From: Sphingobacteriaceae bacterium
GTDB lineage: Bacteria > Bacteroidota > Bacteroidia > B-17B0 > Aurantibacillaceae
Direction: 5' to 3'
Assembly (NCBI GenBank): GCA_023251775.1
Contig: JAHEYC010000024.1
Coordinates: 1 to 42,391 of the forward strand
Length of the DNA: 42,391 nt
Part shown: positions 7,244-19,763 of the stretch, piece after piece
Layout of the letters: each line of letters opens with the position of its first letter
Position numbering within the stretch: position 1 is the stretch's first letter
Program-made: the position numbers and the translations under genes
The notes under the pieces: generated by a model
What the model was told of the DNA's origin: nothing
The model's database searches: none
The model's input: the letters and a program-made list of their open reading frames with translations, nothing else

Positions 7244-9256
7244 ATGGCTTCATCAAAAAAATTAAATTCAAACATTCCCGAAGGGCAATTAGAGCTTAAG
7301 TGGACAACTTACCGCTCAACTGTGCATCTGGTGAATCCTGCCAATAAACGAAGTTTAGAAGTATTGATCATTGGTTCGGGTTTAGCGGGCGCATCTGCTG
7401 CTGCAACACTTGCCGAAATGGGATATAAAGTAAAAGTATTTTGTTTTCAAGATTCGCCTCGTCGTGCGCATTCAATTGCGGCGCAAGGTGGAGTTAATGC
7501 TGCAAAGAATTATCAAAACGATGGTGACAGTGTTTACCGTTTATTTTACGACACAATAAAAGGTGGAGATTATCGTGCGCGTGAAGCAAACGTGCATCGT
7601 TTAGCAGAAGTATCAGGAAATATTATTGATCAATGCGTGGCGCAAGGTGTTCCGTTTGCACGTGAGTATGGCGGATTATTAAGTAACCGTTCGTTCGGTG
7701 GAACGCAAGTGCAACGTACATTTTACGCAGCAGGACAAACAGGACAACAATTATTATTAGGAGCGTATTCTGCATTACAACGTCAGGTTGGAATGGGCGC
7801 TGTAAAATTATTAGCGCGTCACGAAATGTTGGACATTGTAAATATCGATGGCAAATGTCGAGGTATTATTGCACGAGATCTTGTGAGCGGAAAATTGGAA
7901 AGACATTTTGGCCACGCTGTTCTTTTGTGCACGGGTGGATATGGAAATGTATTTTTCCTTTCTACAAACGCTATGGGAAGTAACGTAACCGCTGCATGGA
8001 AAGCACATAAAAAAGGAGCGTTCTTTGGAAATCCGTGTTATACACAAATTCATCCTACATGTATTCCGGTAAGTGGCGATCATCAATCAAAATTAACCTT
8101 GATGTCAGAATCACTTCGTAACGATGGAAGAATTTGGGTGCCAAAAAGCAAAGAACATGCGCAAGCTATTGCTTCAGGAAAAATGAATCCGAACGATCTG
8201 AAAGAAGATGACAGAGATTATTATTTAGAAAGAAGATATCCTGCGTTCGGAAATTTAGTTCCGCGCGATGTTGCATCACGTGCAGCAAAAGAAAGATGCG
8301 ATGCGGGCTTTGGTGTAAATGCAACAGGACAAGCAGTGTATTTGGATTTTGCGTTCAACATGAAATACAAATATGGTAAAACAGAAGCAACCAAAAAAGG
8401 AATTGAGAACCCAACGGAAGAGCAATTAACTGAATTTGGACAAGCAGTTATCAAAGAAAAATACGGTAATTTGTTTGATATGTACGCGCAGATCACCGGC
8501 GTTGATCCTTATAAAAATCCGATGATGATATATCCTGCGGTGCATTATACCATGGGAGGATTATGGGTAGATTATCATTTGATGACAACTGTTCCGGGCT
8601 TATACGCTTTAGGTGAAGCAAATTTTTCTGATCATGGCGCTAACCGTTTAGGTGCTTCGGCATTGATGCAAGGTTTAGCCGATGGTTATTTCGTAATTCC
8701 ATACACCATTGGAGAATATTTATCGGAAGAAATTCGCACTAAAGCAATTCCAACCGATAACGAAGCATTTGTAAAAGCAGAACAAGATGTAAATGATCGC
8801 TTGAATAAATTCTTAAACATAAAAGGAACAAAGTCGGTGGATCACTTTCATAAACGTTTAGGACATGTGATGTGGGACAAATGCGGCATGGCACGAAATG
8901 CTGAAGGTTTAAAGTGGGCTATTGAAGAGATCAAAAAGATCCGTTCAGAATTTTGGAGTGATGTTCGTGTACCTGGTACTGCAAATGAATTTAATCCTGA
9001 ATTAGAAAAAGCAGGACGCGTTGCCGATTTTATTGAGCTTGGCGAATTGATGTGTATGGATGCTTTACATCGTAACGAAAGTTGTGGTGGACATTTCCGC
9101 GAAGAATATCAAACCGAAGAAGGTGAAGCAAAACGTGATGATGATAAATTTGCATACGTAGCAGCATGGGAATACAAAGGCGAAAGCAATTTTGAATTAC
9201 ACAAAGAAGAATTGAAATTTGATAATATTAAGATCGCTCAACGTAGTTACAAATAA
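7244..9256 (+). CDS. sdhA: Succinate dehydrogenase/fumarate reductase flavoprotein subunit
   Basis: 670 residues; catalytic subunit interconverting succinate and fumarate. The FAD-binding motif [10 protein letters not shown] is at about residues 44-53. The covalent-FAD histidine is H76 in [11 protein letters not shown], followed by the [17 protein letters not shown] region. The active-site region [16 protein letters not shown] and the conserved HPTCIP and [10 protein letters not shown] stretches are intact. The length matches the Bacteroidota form, which is longer than the roughly 590-residue enterobacterial protein. It lies between the anchor and iron-sulfur subunits; the start codon follows the AT-rich repeat spacer and lacks a Shine-Dalgarno sequence. 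Confidence 0.96.
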
Positions 9257-9268
9257 AAAAAAGAAATT

Positions 9269-10042
9269 ATGGGAGGTACCACTGGAAAAAATATTAACGT
9301 CACCGTAAAAGTGTGGCGTCAACGCAACAAGAACGAAAAAGGAAGTTTTGAAACGCATGATATGAAAGGTGTTTCAACCGACATGTCGTTCTTAGAAATG
9401 TTCGACGTGTTGAATGAACGTTTGATCACCGAAGGAAAAGATCCTGTGGCATTTGATCATGATTGTCGCGAGGGAATTTGCGGTATGTGCAGTATGTATA
9501 TCAATGGCAGACCGCACGGACCAAAAAATGCGGTTACAACGTGTCAGTTGCACATGCGTAGTTTTAATGATGGTGATACCATTGTGGTTGAACCATGGAG
9601 AAGTGCTGCTTTTCCTGTTGTAAAAGATCTTGTTGTTGATCGCGCTGCATTTGACCGCGTTATTGCAGCAGGAGGTTTTGTATCGGTAAATACGGGTAAT
9701 GCAAAAGACGCCAATAATATTTTAATTCCAAAACCTGAAGCCGATGAAGCATTTAATGCAGCCGCTTGTATTGGATGCGGTGCTTGCGTAGCAGCTTGTA
9801 AAAATGGAAGCGCTATGTTATTTGTATCTGCAAAAGTTTCTCAATTAGCATTATTACCACAAGGAAAAATAGAAGCAGAGAAACGCGTATTAGATATGGT
9901 GCATCAAATGGATGTAGAAGGATTTGGAAATTGCACAAATACCGGGGCGTGTGAAGCGGAATGTCCGAAGAGTATTTCTCTCGAGAACATTGCTCGCATG
10001 AATAGGGAATATGTTTTTGCAAGCGCAAACGAAAAGAAATAG
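9269..10042 (+). CDS. sdhB: Succinate dehydrogenase/fumarate reductase iron-sulfur subunit
   Basis: 257 residues carrying electrons from FAD to the membrane subunit. The plant-type [2Fe-2S] ligands C66, C71, C74 and C92 lie in [10 protein letters not shown]...TTCQL. The second half has [12 protein letters not shown] and, later, [15 protein letters not shown], giving ligands for the [4Fe-4S] and [3Fe-4S] clusters. It begins 12 bases after the sdhA stop and ends 14 bases before a strong terminator, closing the sdhCAB operon. Confidence 0.95.
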
Positions 10043-10056
10043 AACTAAATAATTGT

Positions 10057-10087
10057 AAAAAGCCATCCAAAAGGGTGGCTTTTTTGT
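10057..10087 (+). terminator. Rho-independent terminator of sdhCAB
   Basis: AAAAAGCCATCC pairs with GGGTGGCTTTTT (12 bp, one G-U) around the loop AAAA, followed by more T. It is positioned 14 bases after the sdhB stop. Confidence 0.9.
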
Positions 10088-10132
10088 TTTTAGCTTGTTA
10101 AATCTGTAAAAATCCTGTGTTTTGTCAGCTCT

Positions 10133-10185
10133 ATTGATAGAATGTTAAATGAACAAGACATAAATTTTTATATTTTCGTATATCA
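10133..10185 (+). promoter_or_regulatory. Conserved upstream block of the first large propeller gene
   Basis: This block is closely matched at 13019-13070 upstream of the tandem paralogue: TTGA...AATGTTAAAT(G/A)AACA, then CATAAATTTT(T)ATATTTT, then TATCAAA. TATATTTT at 10169-10176 may be the -7 box. Conservation between copies, and a stop codon in the equivalent frame of the other copy, show the block is non-coding. Confidence 0.5.
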
Positions 10186-10198
10186 AACAATAATTCAA

Positions 10199-12862
10199 AT
10201 GAAAAGAATTTTACTGTGTTCACTTTTTGCAATTTTAAGTTTTAATGTTCAAGCTCAAACTTCGGTTAACTTAAGCTGGGCAAATGCCATGGGCGGTATG
10301 ATCGCCGGGGATGACGTTATGGTAAGGAGTTTTACTGACGCAGCAGGTAATATTTATATTACAGGACAGTTAGCAAACAGTGCTGACATGGATCCGAGCG
10401 CATCAACATTTACGCTTTACGGTAATTACTCATGCTTCCTTGCAAAATATACGGCAGCCGGAACTTTTGTTTGGGCAAAAGGATTTGCAGGAACAGCACA
10501 AAGCGTGGGAAAAGCTGTAGGTGTAGATGGAGCAGGGAACGTTTACTTAACGGGAACACTCAACGGTAGTACCGCTGATATGGATCCAACTGCGTCAAAT
10601 TTTCCTTTGAACGTAAATGGTCCATATGATATGTTCCTTGTCAAATATAATTCTTCGGGCGCGTTCCAGTGGGCGCAAAATATGGGTGGATTATCATCCA
10701 CTGTAAAGCCGGAGTGCATGCAAGTAAATGCGGCAGGAGATATTTTTGTAGGTGGCGCAATAAGTGCAATGGCACCCATTAATTTTAATCCGACCGGGCC
10801 AAGCTATACACTCACAAGTAATTTTGCCGTTGCAGATGCATATGTTGTAAAATACAATAGCGCCGGTTTGATCCAATGGGGATTTAGTATTGGCGGTACA
10901 ATGTCGGATTATGTTTACGATATGGCTATTGATGCGTCAAATAATATTTTTATCGCAGGAACATATCAAACGTATATCAATCTTGATCCGGCTGCGCCAA
11001 CTACTACTGTTCCGTCAAATGGAGCTGAAGATTGTTATCTCGCGAAGTATTCGTCAAATGGTACTTTTATATGGGGAAATGTGGCCGGTCAGGTTTTGAG
11101 CGACGCGTTTTATCGGATCAGTCTTGATGGCGCTGGTAATATTCTTGTTGCGGGATCAATGTGCAGTCCTTTTATGGATATGGATCCTTCGGCGGCAACT
11201 GCAACACTAACTAAAGTTGGAACCGGTACCGATGATTATTTTATTGGAAAATACGCTGCAAGCACCGGCGCATACATATGGGCAAAGAACTCCGGGGGAA
11301 ATGATCTGATACATGCAAAATCGATCACGTCCGATGCGCAAAACAATATTTATATCATGGGCGATTTTAATGATGTTGCAGATTTCGATATCACAGCGGC
11401 ATCGTTCACGCTTGGTGTAACATCAACTTCATACCATGATATGTTCCTCGCAAAATACGATGACACAGGCGCTTTGATCTACGCTAAATCTATTGGCGGC
11501 GCGCCAAGCTCCGACAATTTTGCAAGGGGTGTGCATGTGGATGCCACAAATAATATTGTTCTCACCGGTGCTCACAGTAGTTCGGTAAACGTTGATTTTA
11601 ATGCAACAAATAATTTAAATACATTCGGCGGCAGCGATTTCTTCATCGTAAAATACTCTCAGTGTATTGATGCAGGAACTCCAACCCTTTCGGCTTTTTC
11701 ACAAACAATTTGTGCAAATGGTGTGGCAACATTATCTATCGCAAGTGGTCAATTAAATTCGGCCACCAATTGGGTTTGGTCTACTGTGGTTTGTGGTTCC
11801 GGAACTGTTGGTGTTGGAACAACGCTAACTGTTTCGCCGGTATTTCTTACACAATATTATGTAAGAGGCGAAGGTGGATGTACAAATCCCGGACCATGCG
11901 CAGTTGCAAGCGTTGACGTGGTTCCATCAAAAGGCATCACGGGAACTGTAACAACAGGTGCAGCAATTCCTGTTCCCGGTTTAGTACAATTATTTAGATA
12001 TGAAGGTGCACTTACGAAATGGGATTCGGTAACTTATCAAAATGTGAATGCAACAGGTATTTATTCATTCAATGCAGTAAATTCTGCAAGTTATATCCTT
12101 ATGTGTATCCCTACAGCAACAAATATGGTTAAAACGTACGCACCAAATAATTCAACGTGGAAGAACGCTACTGTTTTTTCGCATAGTTGTTTAGCTGATT
12201 TCAATATTAATATTGATGTTGTTCCAATAACAACCTTAACACCGGGTCCGGGCGTTTTAGCAGGGAAGATAGTAGAAGGAGTAAATTATGGCGGTAAAGG
12301 AACTGCAATATCACCTGGGAATCCAATTGGTGGTTTAACTATCAAGGGAGGAAAAAATCCCGGTGGAGGAATAGTTGCCCAAGGTAAAACAGCAGGCGAT
12401 GGCACTTACACATTATCAGGATTGTCATTATCCGGTGTTGGCGAAACGTATTATGTTTTTGTGGATATTCCGGGAGTAGATACTTCCGGTACGCATTATA
12501 AAGCAATTACGTCGGGAACAACATCCTATGTTGATCTTGATTTTGTGGTTGATTCTGATTATGTGAGACCTATAGATTATACAGCAATTAAAGAATTGAA
12601 TTTAGATGGAGAATTGGTAACGGTTTATCCTAATCCTGCAAAAGACCTGGTGTATATTAAACTGGATGCAAAGAACGAATCAAACATCTCACTTGAATTA
12701 TATGATATGTTTGGCAAGAAAATAATGAGTGAGAATTATTATTCTGTTCAAAATGAATTTAAAACAGGAATTGATGTAGCGAAACTTAGTAGAGGAATTT
12801 ATTTTGTAAAAATAAGATTGAATACAGGCGAAGCTAGGATCAAATTGGTTCTTGCCGAATAA
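10199..12862 (+). CDS. Secreted beta-propeller/Ig-like/carboxypeptidase-regulatory-like protein with T9SS sorting domain (copy 1)
   Basis: 887 residues from the ATG at 10199, which opens a signal peptide (MKRILLCSLF...VQAQ). The frame continues 19 codons upstream, but that part lies in the conserved promoter block, so 10199 is the start. Domains in order: a seven-repeat propeller (DxDP corners such as DMDPSAST, DMDPTASN, NLDPAAPT) to about residue 485; an Ig-like domain with paired Cys (TICANG...VVCGSG...VRGEGGCTNPGPC); two carboxypeptidase-regulatory-like beta domains (KGITGTVTTG... and GVLAGKIVEG...); and a Por sorting domain (VYPNPAKDLVYI...GIYFVKI). Likely a surface or secreted structural protein; ligand unknown. 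The C-terminal third is about 95% identical to the next gene, while the propeller is far more diverged. Confidence 0.87.
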   Translation: MKRILLCSLFAILSFNVQAQTSVNLSWANAMGGMIAGDDVMVRSFTDAAGNIYITGQLANSADMDPSASTFTLYGNYSCFLAKYTAAGTFVWAKGFAGTAQSVGKAVGVDGAGNVYLTGTLNGSTADMDPTASNFPLNVNGPYDMFLVKYNSSGAFQWAQNMGGLSSTVKPECMQVNAAGDIFVGGAISAMAPINFNPTGPSYTLTSNFAVADAYVVKYNSAGLIQWGFSIGGTMSDYVYDMAIDASNNIFIAGTYQTYINLDPAAPTTTVPSNGAEDCYLAKYSSNGTFIWGNVAGQVLSDAFYRISLDGAGNILVAGSMCSPFMDMDPSAATATLTKVGTGTDDYFIGKYAASTGAYIWAKNSGGNDLIHAKSITSDAQNNIYIMGDFNDVADFDITAASFTLGVTSTSYHDMFLAKYDDTGALIYAKSIGGAPSSDNFARGVHVDATNNIVLTGAHSSSVNVDFNATNNLNTFGGSDFFIVKYSQCIDAGTPTLSAFSQTICANGVATLSIASGQLNSATNWVWSTVVCGSGTVGVGTTLTVSPVFLTQYYVRGEGGCTNPGPCAVASVDVVPSKGITGTVTTGAAIPVPGLVQLFRYEGALTKWDSVTYQNVNATGIYSFNAVNSASYILMCIPTATNMVKTYAPNNSTWKNATVFSHSCLADFNINIDVVPITTLTPGPGVLAGKIVEGVNYGGKGTAISPGNPIGGLTIKGGKNPGGGIVAQGKTAGDGTYTLSGLSLSGVGETYYVFVDIPGVDTSGTHYKAITSGTTSYVDLDFVVDSDYVRPIDYTAIKELNLDGELVTVYPNPAKDLVYIKLDAKNESNISLELYDMFGKKIMSENYYSVQNEFKTGIDVAKLSRGIYFVKIRLNTGEARIKLVLAE

Positions 12863-12863
12863 T

Positions 12864-12950
12864 TCATACGTTGATACCGATCACCAGAACATCATCAATT
12901 TGTTCTTAAGACTGTTTCCAATCCACAAAAGGGTTGGAAACTTTTTTTAT
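12864..12950 (-). pseudogene. Relic of the 3' end of the SpoIIE sensor gene
   Basis: The reverse strand translates to VSNPFVDWKQS, stop, EQIDDVLVIGINV, stop. The intact gene at 15755-18949 ends VSNAFADWKQSLEQIDDVLVIGIRV. The match is codon by codon, with a nonsense change (TTA to TAA) in place of Leu and one codon missing near the upstream end. Beyond about 12950 the similarity stops. The fragment sits one base after copy 1 of the duplicated propeller gene, exactly as the intact gene sits after copy 2, so it was carried along in the tandem duplication. It cannot be expressed as a protein but contains the hairpin terminator of copy 1. Confidence 0.85.
12914..12948 (+). terminator. Terminator of propeller copy 1, inside the gene relic
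   Basis: GTTTCCAATCC (12914-12924) pairs with GGGTTGGAAAC (12931-12941) over 11 bp with one G-U pair and the loop ACAAAA, followed by seven T. It is homologous to the hairpin at 15805-15832 but has a longer stem. Confidence 0.85.
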
Positions 12951-13018
12951 CATCTAAAACAATGATTTTAGGTATGAGTAATGTTAAAACCGTCTAAAAG
13001 ATCCTCTTTTGTTGATTC

Positions 13019-13070
13019 TCTTGAGATAATGTTAAATAAACATGGCATAAATTTTATATTTTAGCTTATC
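13019..13070 (+). promoter_or_regulatory. Conserved upstream block of the second large propeller gene
   Basis: Counterpart of the block at 10133-10185: AATGTTAAATAAACA, then CATAAATTTTATATTTT, then TATCAAA. In this copy a TAA interrupts the frame that stays open in copy 1. The block lies 14-65 bases before the ATG at 13084 and probably carries the promoter. The rest of the 221-base gap is the relic, its terminator and AT-rich sequence. Confidence 0.5.
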
Positions 13071-13083
13071 AAAAACTAGTATC

Positions 13084-15753
13084 ATGAGAAGACTTTTATT
13101 TTTATTTTTTGTTGTAGCAATTTGCAGCATTGAATCAAATGCGCAAACATCTGTTGACCTAACTTGGTTAAATGGTTTAGGCTCCAAAAATTCGGGGAAT
13201 GATATTGTAAAGGGATCTTTCGTAGATGCTTCCGGAAATATTTATATAACCGGTCAGATTGCTGATACAACGGATTTTGATCTAACGGCAGCAACTAATA
13301 CGCTTCAAGCGTTGAATCATTGTTTTGTAGCGAAATATAGCAGTGGCGGAACACTTGTTTGGGCAAAAGTATTGAACGGCCTTGGTGTATCTATGGGAAA
13401 TTGTGTGGGAGTTGATGGATCGGGAAATGTTTATTTAAGTGGAAGCTTTAGCGGTGGCAGTATTAATTTTGATCCCTTTGCAACAAATGTGTTGTTGAGT
13501 CCTTCACAAAATGATATGTTCATTGCCAAATATAATTCTTCGGGTGTTTATCAATGGGCATACGGAGTTGGTCAGTTATCAAGTAATGTTACATCGAGAG
13601 CGATGAAAGTTCAGAGTAATGGCGATATTATTGTTGGTGGTAGTTTCAACGCCATTGGTTTAATTGATTTCAATCCCGCTACTCCAAGTTATACAGTGCC
13701 TAATGCTGGCTCCAACGATGGATTTGTTGCCAAGTATAATAATTTAGGTGTATTGCAATGGGCTTTTAATATTGGTGATGTGAGTGGTGATTATGTAACA
13801 GCGGTTGATGCCGACGCAGCCGGGAATGTTTATTTTGCTGGAGATTTTCAAGGAACGCCTGATTTTGACCCAAGTGCCAGCACTTATCCGATCGCTTCAA
13901 CCGGTATGCAAGATTTTTTCTATTGTAAGTTTACAATAACCGGTACGTTAATTTGGGCAAAGAACTTAGGTGGAACTTTAGGAGATGGTGTTAGTCATAT
14001 GAAATTAGATAATTTAGGGAACCTGATCTTAACGGGTTATATGCAAAGCACAGATTTTGATGCCGACCCTTTACCTACTGCGACGGTGACATTAAATAAA
14101 GTAGGTGGAGGATTACAAGATATGTTTGTTGGTAAGTACGATAATTCGAACGGAAATTATTTATGGGCAAAAACCACCGGAAATAGTAATCAAATTTCGG
14201 CAAACGATGTTGCGATCGATGCATTGAACAATGTTTATATAACAGGACAATTTAATGCCACAACTGATTTTGACTTTAGTGCAGCAAATTATACGTTAAC
14301 GCCAACCATCACATCTTTGAATGATGTTTTTTTAGCAAAATACAGTAGTGCAGCAGGGCAATTACTTTTTGCTGATCATTTGGGAGGACCTACTTCACCT
14401 GGTAGCGCAGGTGCCACAATATTTGTTGATAATACAAATAACATTGTGTTAACCGGAACCTACGGTAGTTATATTGATCTTGATTTTTCGGTTGCTTCAA
14501 ATACAGTTACCGCCTATGGGGGAATGGATATTTTCTTTTCTAAATATTCTCAGTGCATAACAGCAGATGCACCAACAGTAGCTGTAACAATGCAAACCAT
14601 GTGCGCTAACAGTGTTGCCACATTATCTATCAGCGGTGGAAATTTGAATTCAGCAACCAATTGGGTTTGGGCAAGTTTAGTTTGCGGATCAGGAACTGTT
14701 GGAGTAGGAACAACCACAACGGTACAACCGGTATTTTTAACGCAATATTTTGTAAGAGGTGAAGGTGGATGTACAAGTCCCGGCCCTTGCGCAAGTGCAA
14801 CGGTTGATGTGGCACCTTTAAAAGGGATCACCGGAACTGTAACTACAGGCGCAGCAATTCCTGTCCCGGGTTTAGTGCAATTATTCAGATATGAAGGAGC
14901 ACTTACAAAATGGGATTCGGTAACGTATCAAAATGTAAATGCAACGGGGATCTATTCGTTCAATGCAGTAAACTCTGCAAGTTATATTATCATGTGCATC
15001 CCAACAGCAACCGACATGGTTAAAACTTACGCGCCCAATAATTCAACATGGAAGAACGCAACTATATTTTCTCATGGTTGTGTAGTTGATTATAATATCA
15101 ATATTGATGTTGTTCCAATTACAACTTTAACACCGGGTCCTGGAGTTTTAGCAGGGAAAATAGTGGAAGGTGTAAATTATGGCGGTAAAGGAACTGCAAT
15201 ATCACCGGGAAATCCAATTGGTGGTTTAACTATCAAAGGCGGTAAAAATCCGGGTGGCGGAATTGTTGCTCAAGGCAAAACAGCAGGCGATGGCACTTAC
15301 ACATTATCAGGATTGTCATTATCCGGTGTTGGCGAAACGTATTATGTTTTTGTGGATATTCCGGGAGTAGATACTGCAGGCACGCATTATAAAGCAATTA
15401 CGTCAGGAACAACATCCTATACCGATCTTGATTTTGTGGTTGATTCTGATTATGTAAGACCAATAGATTATACAGCAATTAAAGAATTGAATTTGGATGG
15501 AGAACTGGTAAAGGTTTATCCTAATCCTGCAAAAGACCTTGTGTATATTAAATTAGATGCAAAGAATGAATCCAACATCTCACTTGAATTATATGATATG
15601 TTTGGAAAGAAAATAATGAGCCAGAATTATTCTTCTGTTCAAAGTGAATTTAAAACAGGGATTGATGTAGCGAAACTTAATAGAGGAATTTATTTTGTAA
15701 AGATAAGATTGAATTCAGGCGAAGCTCGGATCAAGCTTGTGCTTACCGAGTAA
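13084..15753 (+). CDS. Secreted beta-propeller/Ig-like/carboxypeptidase-regulatory-like protein with T9SS sorting domain (copy 2)
   Basis: 889 residues: signal peptide (MRRLLFLFFV...SNAQ), then seven propeller units with (D/N)(F/L)DP-type corners (DFDLTAAT, NFDPFATN, DFNPATPS, DFDPSAST, DFDADPLP, DFDFSAAN, DLDFSVAS). Next come an Ig-like domain with conserved Cys and Trp, two carboxypeptidase-regulatory-like domains and a type A sorting domain ending in IKLVLTE. It is the tandem paralogue of the preceding gene. A run of 99 identical bases (15277-15375 versus 12386-12484) and about 95% protein identity over the last ~310 residues contrast with much weaker similarity in the propeller. Its stop codon is one base from the convergent SpoIIE gene stop, and its terminator lies within that gene. 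Function unknown. Confidence 0.87.
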   Translation: MRRLLFLFFVVAICSIESNAQTSVDLTWLNGLGSKNSGNDIVKGSFVDASGNIYITGQIADTTDFDLTAATNTLQALNHCFVAKYSSGGTLVWAKVLNGLGVSMGNCVGVDGSGNVYLSGSFSGGSINFDPFATNVLLSPSQNDMFIAKYNSSGVYQWAYGVGQLSSNVTSRAMKVQSNGDIIVGGSFNAIGLIDFNPATPSYTVPNAGSNDGFVAKYNNLGVLQWAFNIGDVSGDYVTAVDADAAGNVYFAGDFQGTPDFDPSASTYPIASTGMQDFFYCKFTITGTLIWAKNLGGTLGDGVSHMKLDNLGNLILTGYMQSTDFDADPLPTATVTLNKVGGGLQDMFVGKYDNSNGNYLWAKTTGNSNQISANDVAIDALNNVYITGQFNATTDFDFSAANYTLTPTITSLNDVFLAKYSSAAGQLLFADHLGGPTSPGSAGATIFVDNTNNIVLTGTYGSYIDLDFSVASNTVTAYGGMDIFFSKYSQCITADAPTVAVTMQTMCANSVATLSISGGNLNSATNWVWASLVCGSGTVGVGTTTTVQPVFLTQYFVRGEGGCTSPGPCASATVDVAPLKGITGTVTTGAAIPVPGLVQLFRYEGALTKWDSVTYQNVNATGIYSFNAVNSASYIIMCIPTATDMVKTYAPNNSTWKNATIFSHGCVVDYNINIDVVPITTLTPGPGVLAGKIVEGVNYGGKGTAISPGNPIGGLTIKGGKNPGGGIVAQGKTAGDGTYTLSGLSLSGVGETYYVFVDIPGVDTAGTHYKAITSGTTSYTDLDFVVDSDYVRPIDYTAIKELNLDGELVKVYPNPAKDLVYIKLDAKNESNISLELYDMFGKKIMSQNYSSVQSEFKTGIDVAKLNRGIYFVKIRLNSGEARIKLVLTE

Positions 15754-15754
15754 T

Positions 15755-18700
15755 TTATACTCTTATACCAATCACCAGAACATCATCAATTTGTTCTAAA
15801 GACTGTTTCCAATCTGCAAAAGCATTGGAAACATTTTTTTTCTGAACATCCATAGGCCTATCAATATTTTGTAGTAATAATTTTTGCATATTGGCCAACA
15901 TGAACTTTTTTCCCTTTGGTCCGCCGAACTGATCGGCAAAACCATCGCTGAAAATAAAAATGGTATCTCCTTTTTTTACTTCAATACTGTGATCAACATA
16001 TTCGCGTTTTTCTACTAACTCCAAACCACCAATTGGGAATTTATTTGGTTTTATGATCTCTAATTGATTCCCATTCTCTTTTCTGAATATCCAAAGCGGA
16101 CGATTTGCTCCCGAGTATTTTAATTTATTTGTTTTTTTATCAATAGCGCACAGTGCAATGTCCATACCATCGCGTCGCTCGCTTTCGTGATGATTTTGAT
16201 TGAGCGCAACCTTAACTCCCTTATGTAATTCTAAAAGTATTTTTCCGGGCTCGGAGATATTCCGTTGATTGATTATTTCGTTCAGTAAATTATTTCCAAC
16301 AATACTCATAAATGCACCCGGCACACCATGTCCTGTACAATCGGCCGCTGCAATGAATTGAATATTGTTGTGATCGGAATGCCAGAAAAAATCACCACTT
16401 ACAATATCTTTTGGCTGATACAAAATAAAACAATCCTTTAAAGAAATTTCGGTTTCTCGCAATGATGGCAATAATGCTTCTTGAATATTCTTGGCGTATT
16501 TTATGCTGTCAGTGATCTCAACGTTCTTATTTTGGATCTCCTCTTTTTGTTTTACAACTTCTTTGGTTCGTTCTTCAACTTGTTTCTCAAGTTTTTGTTT
16601 ATCGGCAATAAGTTTTTTGGTTTTGATAGTGTTGTAAGCAAAAATACTGCTAACGCCAACTAAAACACAGATCGTATAGAACCACCAGGTTTGATACCAC
16701 GGTGGTAATATCACAAAACTATAACTAGAAGCTTCTTTGGTCCATAAACCATCGTTATTCATTGCTTGTACCATAAATGTGTATGATCCCGGAGGAAGTG
16801 AAGGATAAGTAACTTCTGTTTTAGAGATCTCGGGTGTCCATGCGTTATCAAGCCCTTCGAGTTTATATTTATACAAAACTTTTTCGGGAGCTATTAAACT
16901 AATGCCAATGTATTTGAATGTGATGTTATTTTTTGAAGAAGGTAATACAAGTTCCTTTGGTAAATAATGAATACTGTCAATTCCTTTAGCATGATCCAAA
17001 ATATCTTCTTGCCCAAAAAATAATTTAATATCAGTGATGTTCAAAACAGGTTCTTTGGTATTAACGGCATCAATATTTGGATCATAGATCTCAAGACCGC
17101 CAACCGTGCCAATTAAAATGCGTCCGTCTTTGGCAATGTGTCCCGCATTTGAATTTGATTCTAAACTTAGCAAGCCATCATCTTTACCAAAATGCTTGAG
17201 TTTAGCTTCGTTAGTATAAAATGCTTTAATGTCTATGATATCTATACCATTATTTGAGCCAATGTATAAATTATCCTTACCATCAATTTGTAAAAAATTA
17301 ATGAAACCGCTGGTATATCCTTGTTTTTTGGAGATGCGAGTTAACGCACTGTAATTATAAAGATAAAGTCCAACAGAAGTACCCAGCCATATATTTTTTC
17401 GCGAGTCCATAACAGCGCAAGATACACGCGAATTGATGAATTTATTTTTATCGTTATACTGAACGATCTTATCTCCTTCGTATTCTACAATTCCATTCTC
17501 TGTTCCAATGAGTATTCGCCCAAATTTATCTTCCGAAATAAATAGGATGAGAATATGAATGCCTTTTCCTCGAACGGAATTTACTTTTGTTTCTTCGGTT
17601 ACAATGCCATCCTTTAAAGTGAAAACCCCTTGGTTAGTACCGATCCATAGTTTATTTTTTGAATCCAAATAAAGAGAACTGATATAACGGTTCTTGATCA
17701 CCGGATCGATTAGCGTGAGAAATTTTCCATTCTCAAAATGGTATAAACCTTCATCTGTCCCAAAATAAATAGTGCCGTCGCTCATTGGTAAAATGGCATT
17801 GATATTATTATCTATTAAACCCGGAGAATTCTTTTCACCTCTTTGATAACTTGTAATTGTTCCGTTCTTTATTTTAGCTAAGCCATGACTATTTAATGCT
17901 AACCATATAGCACCTTCTTTATCCTCCGCAACAGCATTGATATAATTTTCGGCAAGACCGTTCAGCTTTGTGAAATAAATAAATTTATTGGAAAAGAATT
18001 TATATACGCCCGAACCATTAGAACCTATCCAAATATTTTTTTCGCGATCCTGCAACAAGGCAAGAATGGGATTATTTGTTAGACCGTTCTCTGAGTTATA
18101 ATAACCCTTTCTTACTTTACTCGTAAAATCGTAAGAAAAGATACCTTCGGCGAACGTAGAAAAATAAAATTCATCCTCACCTGTTTTTATGATGCTGCTG
18201 AACGAGATATTTCCTTGGGCGGGGATCTCATTTGCAGCCCGAACGTTCATATCCTTATCAACAATGTTCAAACCTGTTTGGGTACCAACCAATACCTCTC
18301 CGTTAGAGCGTTGCGCAAAAGCGAAAACAAAATCATGCGATAAGCCGTTGGCGGAAGAGAGATGTTTGAATGTGCCATTTTTTCGATCATAGAATACTAA
18401 TCCGTTTTGCATGGTACCAAACCAAATATTATCATTCGCATCAATGAACATTGAATAGATAGTACTTGTATTAAGCACTTCATTTTTTGTGAACGCGCTG
18501 ATCTTATTGTTCTCTAAAATAAAAACGCCGTTCTGCGTTCCTATCCATGTTTTGTTGTTGTCGCAAAGTAATTTATAGACCCAGCTGTTGGCAAGACCAT
18601 TCTTCTCATTATAATTTGTGAAATTTAAATTCTTATAAACGCTTATGCCTTTGCTTGTACCAAAAAGTAATTCGTGGTTCGGCGTTTCAACTATTGAAAA

Positions 18701-18949
18701 AACAACATCGTTAATTAAACCGTCGTTAGCCGAGAGTTGATGAAATTTATTACCATCAAATTTTCCCGCACCTCCGCTGTTAGTTCCAAACCACACATAC
18801 CCTTTACTATCTTGAAAAACGGAAAGCACTTGTGATTGCGGTAAACCATGTTCGGTATTATAATTCTTAAAATTATAAGTTTGAGAAAATGAAAAACAGG
18901 AAACTAAAGTAACAAGAGAAGTAGTGAGATATTTTTTTAGCTTGATCAA
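15755..18949 (-). CDS. Membrane sensor: ligand-binding beta-propeller, Y_Y_Y domain, SpoIIE-type phosphatase
   Basis: 1064 residues. A signal peptide ends at FSFSQ. Two-component-type propeller repeats (GLPQSQV, DSKGYVWFGT, DNNIWFGT, REKNIWIGS, SKNKLWIGT) fill residues about 25-640. A Y_Y_Y domain (YKYKLEGLDNAW...LPPGSYTFMVQAMN) lies at about 685-745, a transmembrane helix at about 753-775, a short coiled coil (KQKLEKQVEERTKEV), and a PP2C/SpoIIE phosphatase from about 830 to the end. Its metal-binding acidic residues are visible in IVSGDFFW, AADCTGHG, FSDGFADQ and IDDVLVIG. The layout is that of a hybrid sensor with the histidine kinase replaced by a Ser/Thr phosphatase: periplasmic sensing, cytoplasmic dephosphorylation of an unknown partner, perhaps an anti-sigma-factor antagonist. 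No such partner gene is nearby. Its last codons encode, on the other strand, the terminator of the adjacent propeller gene. Confidence 0.9.
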   Translation of the reverse strand: MIKLKKYLTTSLVTLVSCFSFSQTYNFKNYNTEHGLPQSQVLSVFQDSKGYVWFGTNSGGAGKFDGNKFHQLSANDGLINDVVFSIVETPNHELLFGTSKGISVYKNLNFTNYNEKNGLANSWVYKLLCDNNKTWIGTQNGVFILENNKISAFTKNEVLNTSTIYSMFIDANDNIWFGTMQNGLVFYDRKNGTFKHLSSANGLSHDFVFAFAQRSNGEVLVGTQTGLNIVDKDMNVRAANEIPAQGNISFSSIIKTGEDEFYFSTFAEGIFSYDFTSKVRKGYYNSENGLTNNPILALLQDREKNIWIGSNGSGVYKFFSNKFIYFTKLNGLAENYINAVAEDKEGAIWLALNSHGLAKIKNGTITSYQRGEKNSPGLIDNNINAILPMSDGTIYFGTDEGLYHFENGKFLTLIDPVIKNRYISSLYLDSKNKLWIGTNQGVFTLKDGIVTEETKVNSVRGKGIHILILFISEDKFGRILIGTENGIVEYEGDKIVQYNDKNKFINSRVSCAVMDSRKNIWLGTSVGLYLYNYSALTRISKKQGYTSGFINFLQIDGKDNLYIGSNNGIDIIDIKAFYTNEAKLKHFGKDDGLLSLESNSNAGHIAKDGRILIGTVGGLEIYDPNIDAVNTKEPVLNITDIKLFFGQEDILDHAKGIDSIHYLPKELVLPSSKNNITFKYIGISLIAPEKVLYKYKLEGLDNAWTPEISKTEVTYPSLPPGSYTFMVQAMNNDGLWTKEASSYSFVILPPWYQTWWFYTICVLVGVSSIFAYNTIKTKKLIADKQKLEKQVEERTKEVVKQKEEIQNKNVEITDSIKYAKNIQEALLPSLRETEISLKDCFILYQPKDIVSGDFFWHSDHNNIQFIAAADCTGHGVPGAFMSIVGNNLLNEIINQRNISEPGKILLELHKGVKVALNQNHHESERRDGMDIALCAIDKKTNKLKYSGANRPLWIFRKENGNQLEIIKPNKFPIGGLELVEKREYVDHSIEVKKGDTIFIFSDGFADQFGGPKGKKFMLANMQKLLLQNIDRPMDVQKKNVSNAFADWKQSLEQIDDVLVIGIRV
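15805..15841 (+). terminator. Terminator of propeller copy 2, embedded in the antisense SpoIIE coding sequence
   Basis: GTTTCCAAT (15805-15813) pairs with ATTGGAAAC (15824-15832), a perfect 9-bp stem with a 10-base loop, followed by A and eight T. The hairpin starts about 50 bases after the copy 2 stop and lies wholly within the C-terminal codons of the convergent gene. The homologous hairpin at 12914-12941 supports the function. Confidence 0.75.
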
Positions 18950-18968
18950 TGGGTATTCAAATATAAAC

Positions 18969-19763
18969 TTAAAAACACTTATTAATAAATTTCTTCAACC
19001 CTTTATTCACCACAAGCGGACTTTCCAAAAATCCCATATGTCCATCGTGTTCTAAAACCAAGATCTGTTTATTGCGAATGGTTTCCGATTGTGCCAATAA
19101 ACTTTGGTAAGGTAAAATATTATCGTGCTCGCCAATGATCATCATAACGGGATAACTTACCATCCCTAAAATAATATCTCTGTTTGGTCTGTCTTTCATT
19201 CCTTCTAATGCTGCAACAGCTCCTTGTTTTGTAACACTCAATGCAATTTTTGTGGCGAAAGCAATTTCATCTTTTAAATACTTTAAATTTTTTGTCGCAA
19301 ATAAATTCTTGATGGTATCCTTGGTATAAACACGTTTGTTGGCTTTCACCAATTTTATTGCGCGCATTCTGTCTTTCTTTTTTTCTTCCGAATCGGGTAG
19401 GGCAGTGGAGTGACATAAACATAAACCACATAAATGTTCTGGATATAATTCAGCAAATGCAAGAGCGGCGTAACCTCCCATGCTATGACCAACGATCACA
19501 TATTTTTTTAATCGTAAACTATCCATTACTTTTTTTACGCACTTAGCTATGAGTTCCATACTATGTACATAACCAAAACAAGGTGTTTGTCCATGCCCCG
19601 GAAGATCAATGGCAATTACACGAAACGTTTTTGCAAGTTCCGCGATATTCTTCTCCCAAATTTCCTTCGAACCTAAATACCCATGTAATAAAACAACAAC
19701 ACGCCCTTCTCCCTGATCAGAAAAGGAAACTGCAGTATTTTTAAATAAGGCTGTTTTATCCAT
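18969..19763 (-). CDS. Alpha/beta-fold hydrolase
   Basis: 264 residues with the alpha/beta-hydrolase core. The oxyanion-hole motif is LLHGYLGS (near residue 26) and the nucleophile elbow GHSMGG gives Ser94. The acidic residue is in IIGEHDN and the catalytic His in EHDGHMGFLE near the C-terminus. AIDLPGHGQT is the usual loop after strand 4. No signal peptide, so cytoplasmic. The substrate cannot be predicted; esterases, MhpC-like hydrolases and BioH-like enzymes share this form. The start codon abuts the stop of the EVE-domain gene, so the two are probably co-transcribed. Confidence 0.87.
   Translation of the reverse strand: MDKTALFKNTAVSFSDQGEGRVVVLLHGYLGSKEIWEKNIAELAKTFRVIAIDLPGHGQTPCFGYVHSMELIAKCVKKVMDSLRLKKYVIVGHSMGGYAALAFAELYPEHLCGLCLCHSTALPDSEEKKKDRMRAIKLVKANKRVYTKDTIKNLFATKNLKYLKDEIAFATKIALSVTKQGAVAALEGMKDRPNRDIILGMVSYPVMMIIGEHDNILPYQSLLAQSETIRNKQILVLEHDGHMGFLESPLVVNKGLKKFINKCF

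Follow-up and report, generated by a model that had tools for sequence, protein, structure and literature searches.

A SpoIIE gene fragment with a predicted terminator behind the first copy of a tandemly duplicated propeller gene in a Sphingobacteriaceae bacterium

The DNA analyzed here, referred to as the window, is a 42,391-nt stretch from a Sphingobacteriaceae bacterium (GCA_023251775.1, contig JAHEYC010000024.1, positions 1 to 42,391 of the forward strand). It contains two adjacent direct copies of a gene for a secreted beta-propeller protein, the second convergent with a SpoIIE sensor gene. Upstream of this block are sdhA- and sdhB-like genes; the iron-sulphur protein gene at 9269-10042 (sdhB-like) is identified by domain match, while the sdhA name is assigned from neighbourhood. 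Copy 1 of the propeller gene is listed as an ORF from 10142, but the ATG at 10199 corresponds to the start of copy 2. The features discussed below are:

10057-10091, forward strand: intrinsic terminator of the sdhB-like gene with T-rich tail, from a terminator scan and the homology limits; the left edge of the block is just behind it
10085-10198, forward: region upstream of copy 1 (promoter), with homology to 12943-13083 by shuffle test
10199-12862, forward: propeller gene copy 1, with SBBP repeats and a type IX secretion sorting tail (domain matches, alignment with copy 2)
11702-12942, forward: homogenised stretch (compared with 14593-15833), including the relic; probably gene conversion, as judged from the divergence drop, an identical run and C-part identity
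12863-12942, reverse: SpoIIE 3′-end relic covering the final ~26 codons (homology to 15754-15833, in-frame stop at 12906-12908)
12914-12948, forward: predicted intrinsic terminator of copy 1, an 11-bp stem (12914-12941) followed by T7; -16.2 kcal/mol, z -4.4
12943-13083, forward: junction of the duplicated blocks and region upstream of copy 2 (homology limits, shuffle test)
13084-15753, forward: propeller gene copy 2 (alignment with copy 1, domain matches)
15755-18949, reverse: intact SpoIIE sensor gene, with Reg_prop, Y_Y_Y, and SpoIIE phosphatase domains (domain matches)
15805-15841, forward: equivalent copy-2 hairpin and T tract, within the SpoIIE coding sequence; -12.7 kcal/mol, z -3.9

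An Rfam search of 9800-19000 gave no match, and a scan of the genome's contigs gave one weak match. The SpoIIE phosphatase domain (PF07228) belongs to a very large family expansion, with 77 matches in the 3.6-Mb genome G000 and 43 in the related genome G033.

The segment behind copy 1 (12863-12942) aligns without gaps to the SpoIIE gene end (15754-15833) at an offset of 2891, with 69 of 80 positions identical (86%) and 11 differences. Chance similarity is ruled out by shuffles and by a window-wide comparison: the local score is 122, against 18.7 ± 3.6 for 500 dinucleotide shuffles, none of which scored as high, and the match scores 128, whereas no unrelated stretch on either strand of the window scores above 36. 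In antisense translation the relic reads ..WKQS*EQIDDVLVIGI.., where asterisks represent stop codons; the motif EQIDDVLVIGI is kept, the leucine codon TTA at 15797-15799 of the intact gene is TAA at 12906-12908, and several of the differences change amino acids. By homology and reading frame this is a pseudogene fragment, a SpoIIE homologue of ~26 remaining codons with a broken frame. At the stop-creating site the SpoIIE homologues of three relatives (G033, G029, G007) all have the copy-2 state, and at 12879 two of the three agree with it; because they match copy 2, these changes arose in the relic. A preliminary description had proposed an antisense, decayed copy of the last ~25 SpoIIE codons with a stop in place of Leu, lying one base past the copy-1 stop just as SpoIIE lies one base past copy 2, and this is what is found. 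Similarity between 12864-12950 and 15755-15841, on which that reading had been made to depend, is strong (0/500 shuffles), with the qualification that the relic ends slightly earlier than 12950: identity is at background past ~12943.

Compared pairwise, as had been suggested, the two block copies are homologous from edge to edge. Upstream regions and relic each score above all 500 shuffles, and the gene copies align throughout. The upstream regions (10043-10198 and 12943-13083) score 99 against 28 ± 5 (0/500 shuffles), with a 49-nt core at 80%. At the left edge, weak homology (5/500 shuffles) reaches just past the sdhB terminator, to ~10085; at the right, homology ends at 12942, where the T tract after the hairpin at 12914-12941 begins. 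Both edges are thus at T-rich terminator tails, and recombination at such tails may have been the breakpoint mechanism. The sequence comparison supports an origin of the block by tandem duplication reaching into the convergent neighbour. Its expected content of promoter, propeller gene, and a piece of the neighbour was correctly described, except that the piece is not the first ~85 bases of SpoIIE but, in its reading direction, the last ~80. An assembly artefact can be ruled out: the copies are saturated at silent sites in the propeller half.

Divergence between the copies is very uneven. In the propeller half dS is ~2.3 (saturated), and in successive bins of the 3′ part it is 0.79, 0.68, 0.25, and 0.38; the share of codons differing synonymously is 0.14-0.19 at the 3′ end, compared with 0.46-0.53 for the propeller half (Fisher p 3e-12). 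There is a 99-base identical run at 12386. At the protein level, the N-terminal parts of the copies are 46% identical to each other vs. 37-38% to the G033 protein, and the C-terminal parts 91.5% vs. 50%, so that in either half the copies resemble each other more than they do the G033 protein, with a far larger excess in the C part. The relic itself, with 11 of 80 positions changed, has diverged about as much as adjacent silent sites (Fisher p 0.71), a level that does not demonstrate extra constraint. The best reading of this gradient is a later gene conversion of the 3′ end, relic included. A single age for relic and block, as the preliminary description implied, does not fit: the propeller halves are saturated, while the 3′ part and relic are young. 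Since these were probably homogenised later, the relic cannot date the duplication.

The relic also contains a GC-containing hairpin and, immediately after it, a T tract, which together form the sequence pattern of an intrinsic terminator; nothing else terminator-like occurs from the end of copy 1 up to copy 2. Both hairpin arms are intact, as is the T tract, and copy 2 has the shorter stem. Four differences separate the two hairpins, all in the inner stem or loop; their direction cannot be polarised. No such hairpin is present at the SpoIIE ends of G033, G029, G007, or G023, while a count of antisense hairpins at other SpoIIE ends of G000 (0 of 56) was set aside, most of these pieces being too short for a hairpin plus T tract. 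The lenient terminator pattern is also matched by ~6% of random 100-base pieces, and a consensus terminator scan of 9000-19000 yielded no more sites than in shuffles. Folding and position nevertheless suggest that the relic hairpin could act in termination, and that the relic is probably the predicted 3′ UTR and terminator of copy 1 rather than plain junk. The term “pseudogene relic” is therefore apt as to SpoIIE homology and broken frame, but not if taken to mean only decayed, since this probable terminator lies within it. The predicted copy-2 terminator sits inside SpoIIE coding sequence, which would be why neighbour sequence came along with the duplicate. As antisense SpoIIE sequence, the predicted copy-1 3′ UTR is complementary to SpoIIE over unbroken stretches of 27 and 16 bases. 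It could conceivably pair in trans with the 3′ end of SpoIIE mRNA, with both propeller transcripts down-regulating the sensor gene, but we regard this as a long shot.

The ancestral junction was sought in relatives, as the preliminary description had recommended; one single-copy convergent relative, G033, carries this comparison. Synteny is kept there (sdhA 92%, sdhB 90%), and one propeller gene is convergent with SpoIIE. In trees of either half, copy 1, copy 2, and this G033 gene form one clade (100/100). An insertion of ~100 bases has since given the G033 SpoIIE gene a new end, DDVCIIGIRL*; its old end, DEVLVIGIKV*, has been displaced and overlaps with the stop codon of the propeller gene. 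Because of this overlap, the abutting junction of copy 2 and SpoIIE can be taken as ancestral, in agreement with the suggestion that the copy beside the intact gene had kept it. The displaced G033 tail was rejected as an orthologue of the window relic, having been moved by a palindrome insertion. Other differences in gene content were also seen. Between sdhB and the propeller gene, G033 carries one gene with a VTC domain and one with DUF4956 (L072:3867-5259), both absent from this place in the window. It has a second propeller-like gene beyond SpoIIE, on its other side; same-strand propeller-like genes are found upstream of SpoIIE in G033 (L072:11480-14230), G029, G007, and others, and this is the only type in six other genus members examined. 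In the window there is none at that position, SpoIIE directly adjoining an abhydrolase gene (18949-18969).

The insertion in G033 belongs to a wider set. The palindrome TTAGAGACGAAYGCNNNGCNNTGTCTC (TTAGAGACGAAYGC..GTCTC form) occurs eight times in 40 genus genomes at up to three mismatches, confined to four of them, and a reversed control pattern not at all. Family matches to Y1 transposases are present in each of these four genomes. A SpoIIE gene ends immediately before each of the eight sites, and after most of them its final ~10 codons (DDVxxxGxxx*) appear a second time. In the G033 orthologue of the window gene, the new end and the displaced old end are of different types. It is as if the palindromic element brought its own gene end, by analogy with integrases at tRNA 3′ ends. 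At other SpoIIE ends, where tails are likewise repeated, there are TCCCGAC/GTCGGGA palindromes or a palindrome that includes the stop codon, such as CGTGTGTATTATAGGC-ATTC-GCCTATAATACACACG. Stems of the stop-spanning type reach ~16 perfect pairs, with gene-specific sequence in both arms; TCCCGAC/GTCGGGA-type palindromes follow, some with tandem tail repeats. Loci with these features are:

L072:8136-8240, L112:2158-2375, L113:1798-1909, L156:1426-1535, L159:1238-1348, and L160:1251-1384: palindrome behind a SpoIIE gene, mostly with a repeated tail
L149:3210-3251, L150:3612-3655, and L151:1673-1711: stop-spanning SpoIIE palindromes

Searches of the literature gave no description of palindromes at the 3′ ends of SpoIIE genes. 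CGTC-tagged REPs are small palindromes beside GACG, which reads CGTC on the opposite strand; some are found at coding ends, and Bacteroidetes are among the phyla from which they have been described (PMC3733652). The GACG preceding the genus palindromes resembles this tag; unlike those REPs, the present REP-like palindromes are at SpoIIE 3′ ends, and behind most of them the last codons of the gene are repeated.

A history of the locus can be proposed as follows. Ancestrally, the propeller and SpoIIE genes would have stood tail to tail with abutting stop codons, and the final ~90 bases of the SpoIIE coding sequence would have housed the propeller terminator. A duplication in tandem would then have doubled the whole transcription unit, leaving a SpoIIE fragment behind copy 1; the left edge of the duplicated block would lie at or near the T-rich tail of the sdhB terminator, and the right edge at or near that of the propeller terminator inside SpoIIE. 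On the simplest account, a working duplicate had to carry SpoIIE bases because the propeller transcription unit extends ~90 bases into that gene. Freed from coding, the fragment would have lost its frame and kept its hairpin and T tract, and is now most likely the predicted 3′ UTR and terminator of copy 1. Gene conversion between the copies would later have renewed both the relic and the 3′ part of the gene, with the propeller halves left to diverge. We consider this history, duplication with a terminator-bearing SpoIIE fragment and later gene conversion, quite probable as a whole.

The nearest alternative is that the fragment came with the duplication but is functionless and simply decaying. 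Its in-frame stop, several amino-acid-changing differences, and divergence equal to that of neighbouring silent sites are all as expected for such a relic; intact hairpin arms and T tract, a stem longer than in copy 2, and the lack of another good terminator after copy 1 are not, and make this unlikely. It is slightly less likely still that the propeller genes are older neighbours, and that recombination overrunning the homology later replaced the original 3′ end of copy 1 with that of copy 2 and an adjoining 80 bases of SpoIIE. Divergence does drop steeply from ~11700 on, relic included, but the upstream regions are homologous too, the edges meet near 12943 as predicted for a tandem junction, and copy 1, copy 2, and the G033 convergent gene are one clade in both halves. 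Finally, the relic could be a SpoIIE tail displaced by a REP-like palindrome insertion, since such tails exist, even at the orthologous gene of G033. Those, however, begin at DDV codons, after the palindrome, while the window relic is ~15 codons longer; no such palindrome is present at the window, the sole G000 match being on contig C107; and a survey of ordinary SpoIIE ends in G000 and G033 turned up no displaced tail. The relic in the window does not belong to this group, and we give the idea almost no weight.

The preferred history, with a terminator-bearing fragment, is an ordinary kind of gene-duplication event, well resolved. It resembles other tandem duplications with a truncated flanking gene: the block is a direct repeat with one ancestral junction and another carrying a cut-off fragment of the neighbour. 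It differs from a plain relic of that kind in that the fragment has apparently been kept as a predicted 3′ UTR and terminator, and that its age has probably been reset by later homogenisation. Convergent bacterial genes with overlapping 3′ UTRs are known (reviewed in PMC7821165; for Rickettsia prowazekii, PMC3027695). As in these, the propeller transcript, as predicted here from sequence, would enter the convergent gene and end in antisense sequence; the difference is that here the antisense 3′ UTR was itself duplicated, and one copy is no longer opposite its matching gene. A terminator inside the coding end of the neighbour, so that the working unit overlaps it, would be a concrete reason for a duplicated gene to drag along a piece of a convergent neighbour; and where gene conversion renews such a junction relic, it is no clock.
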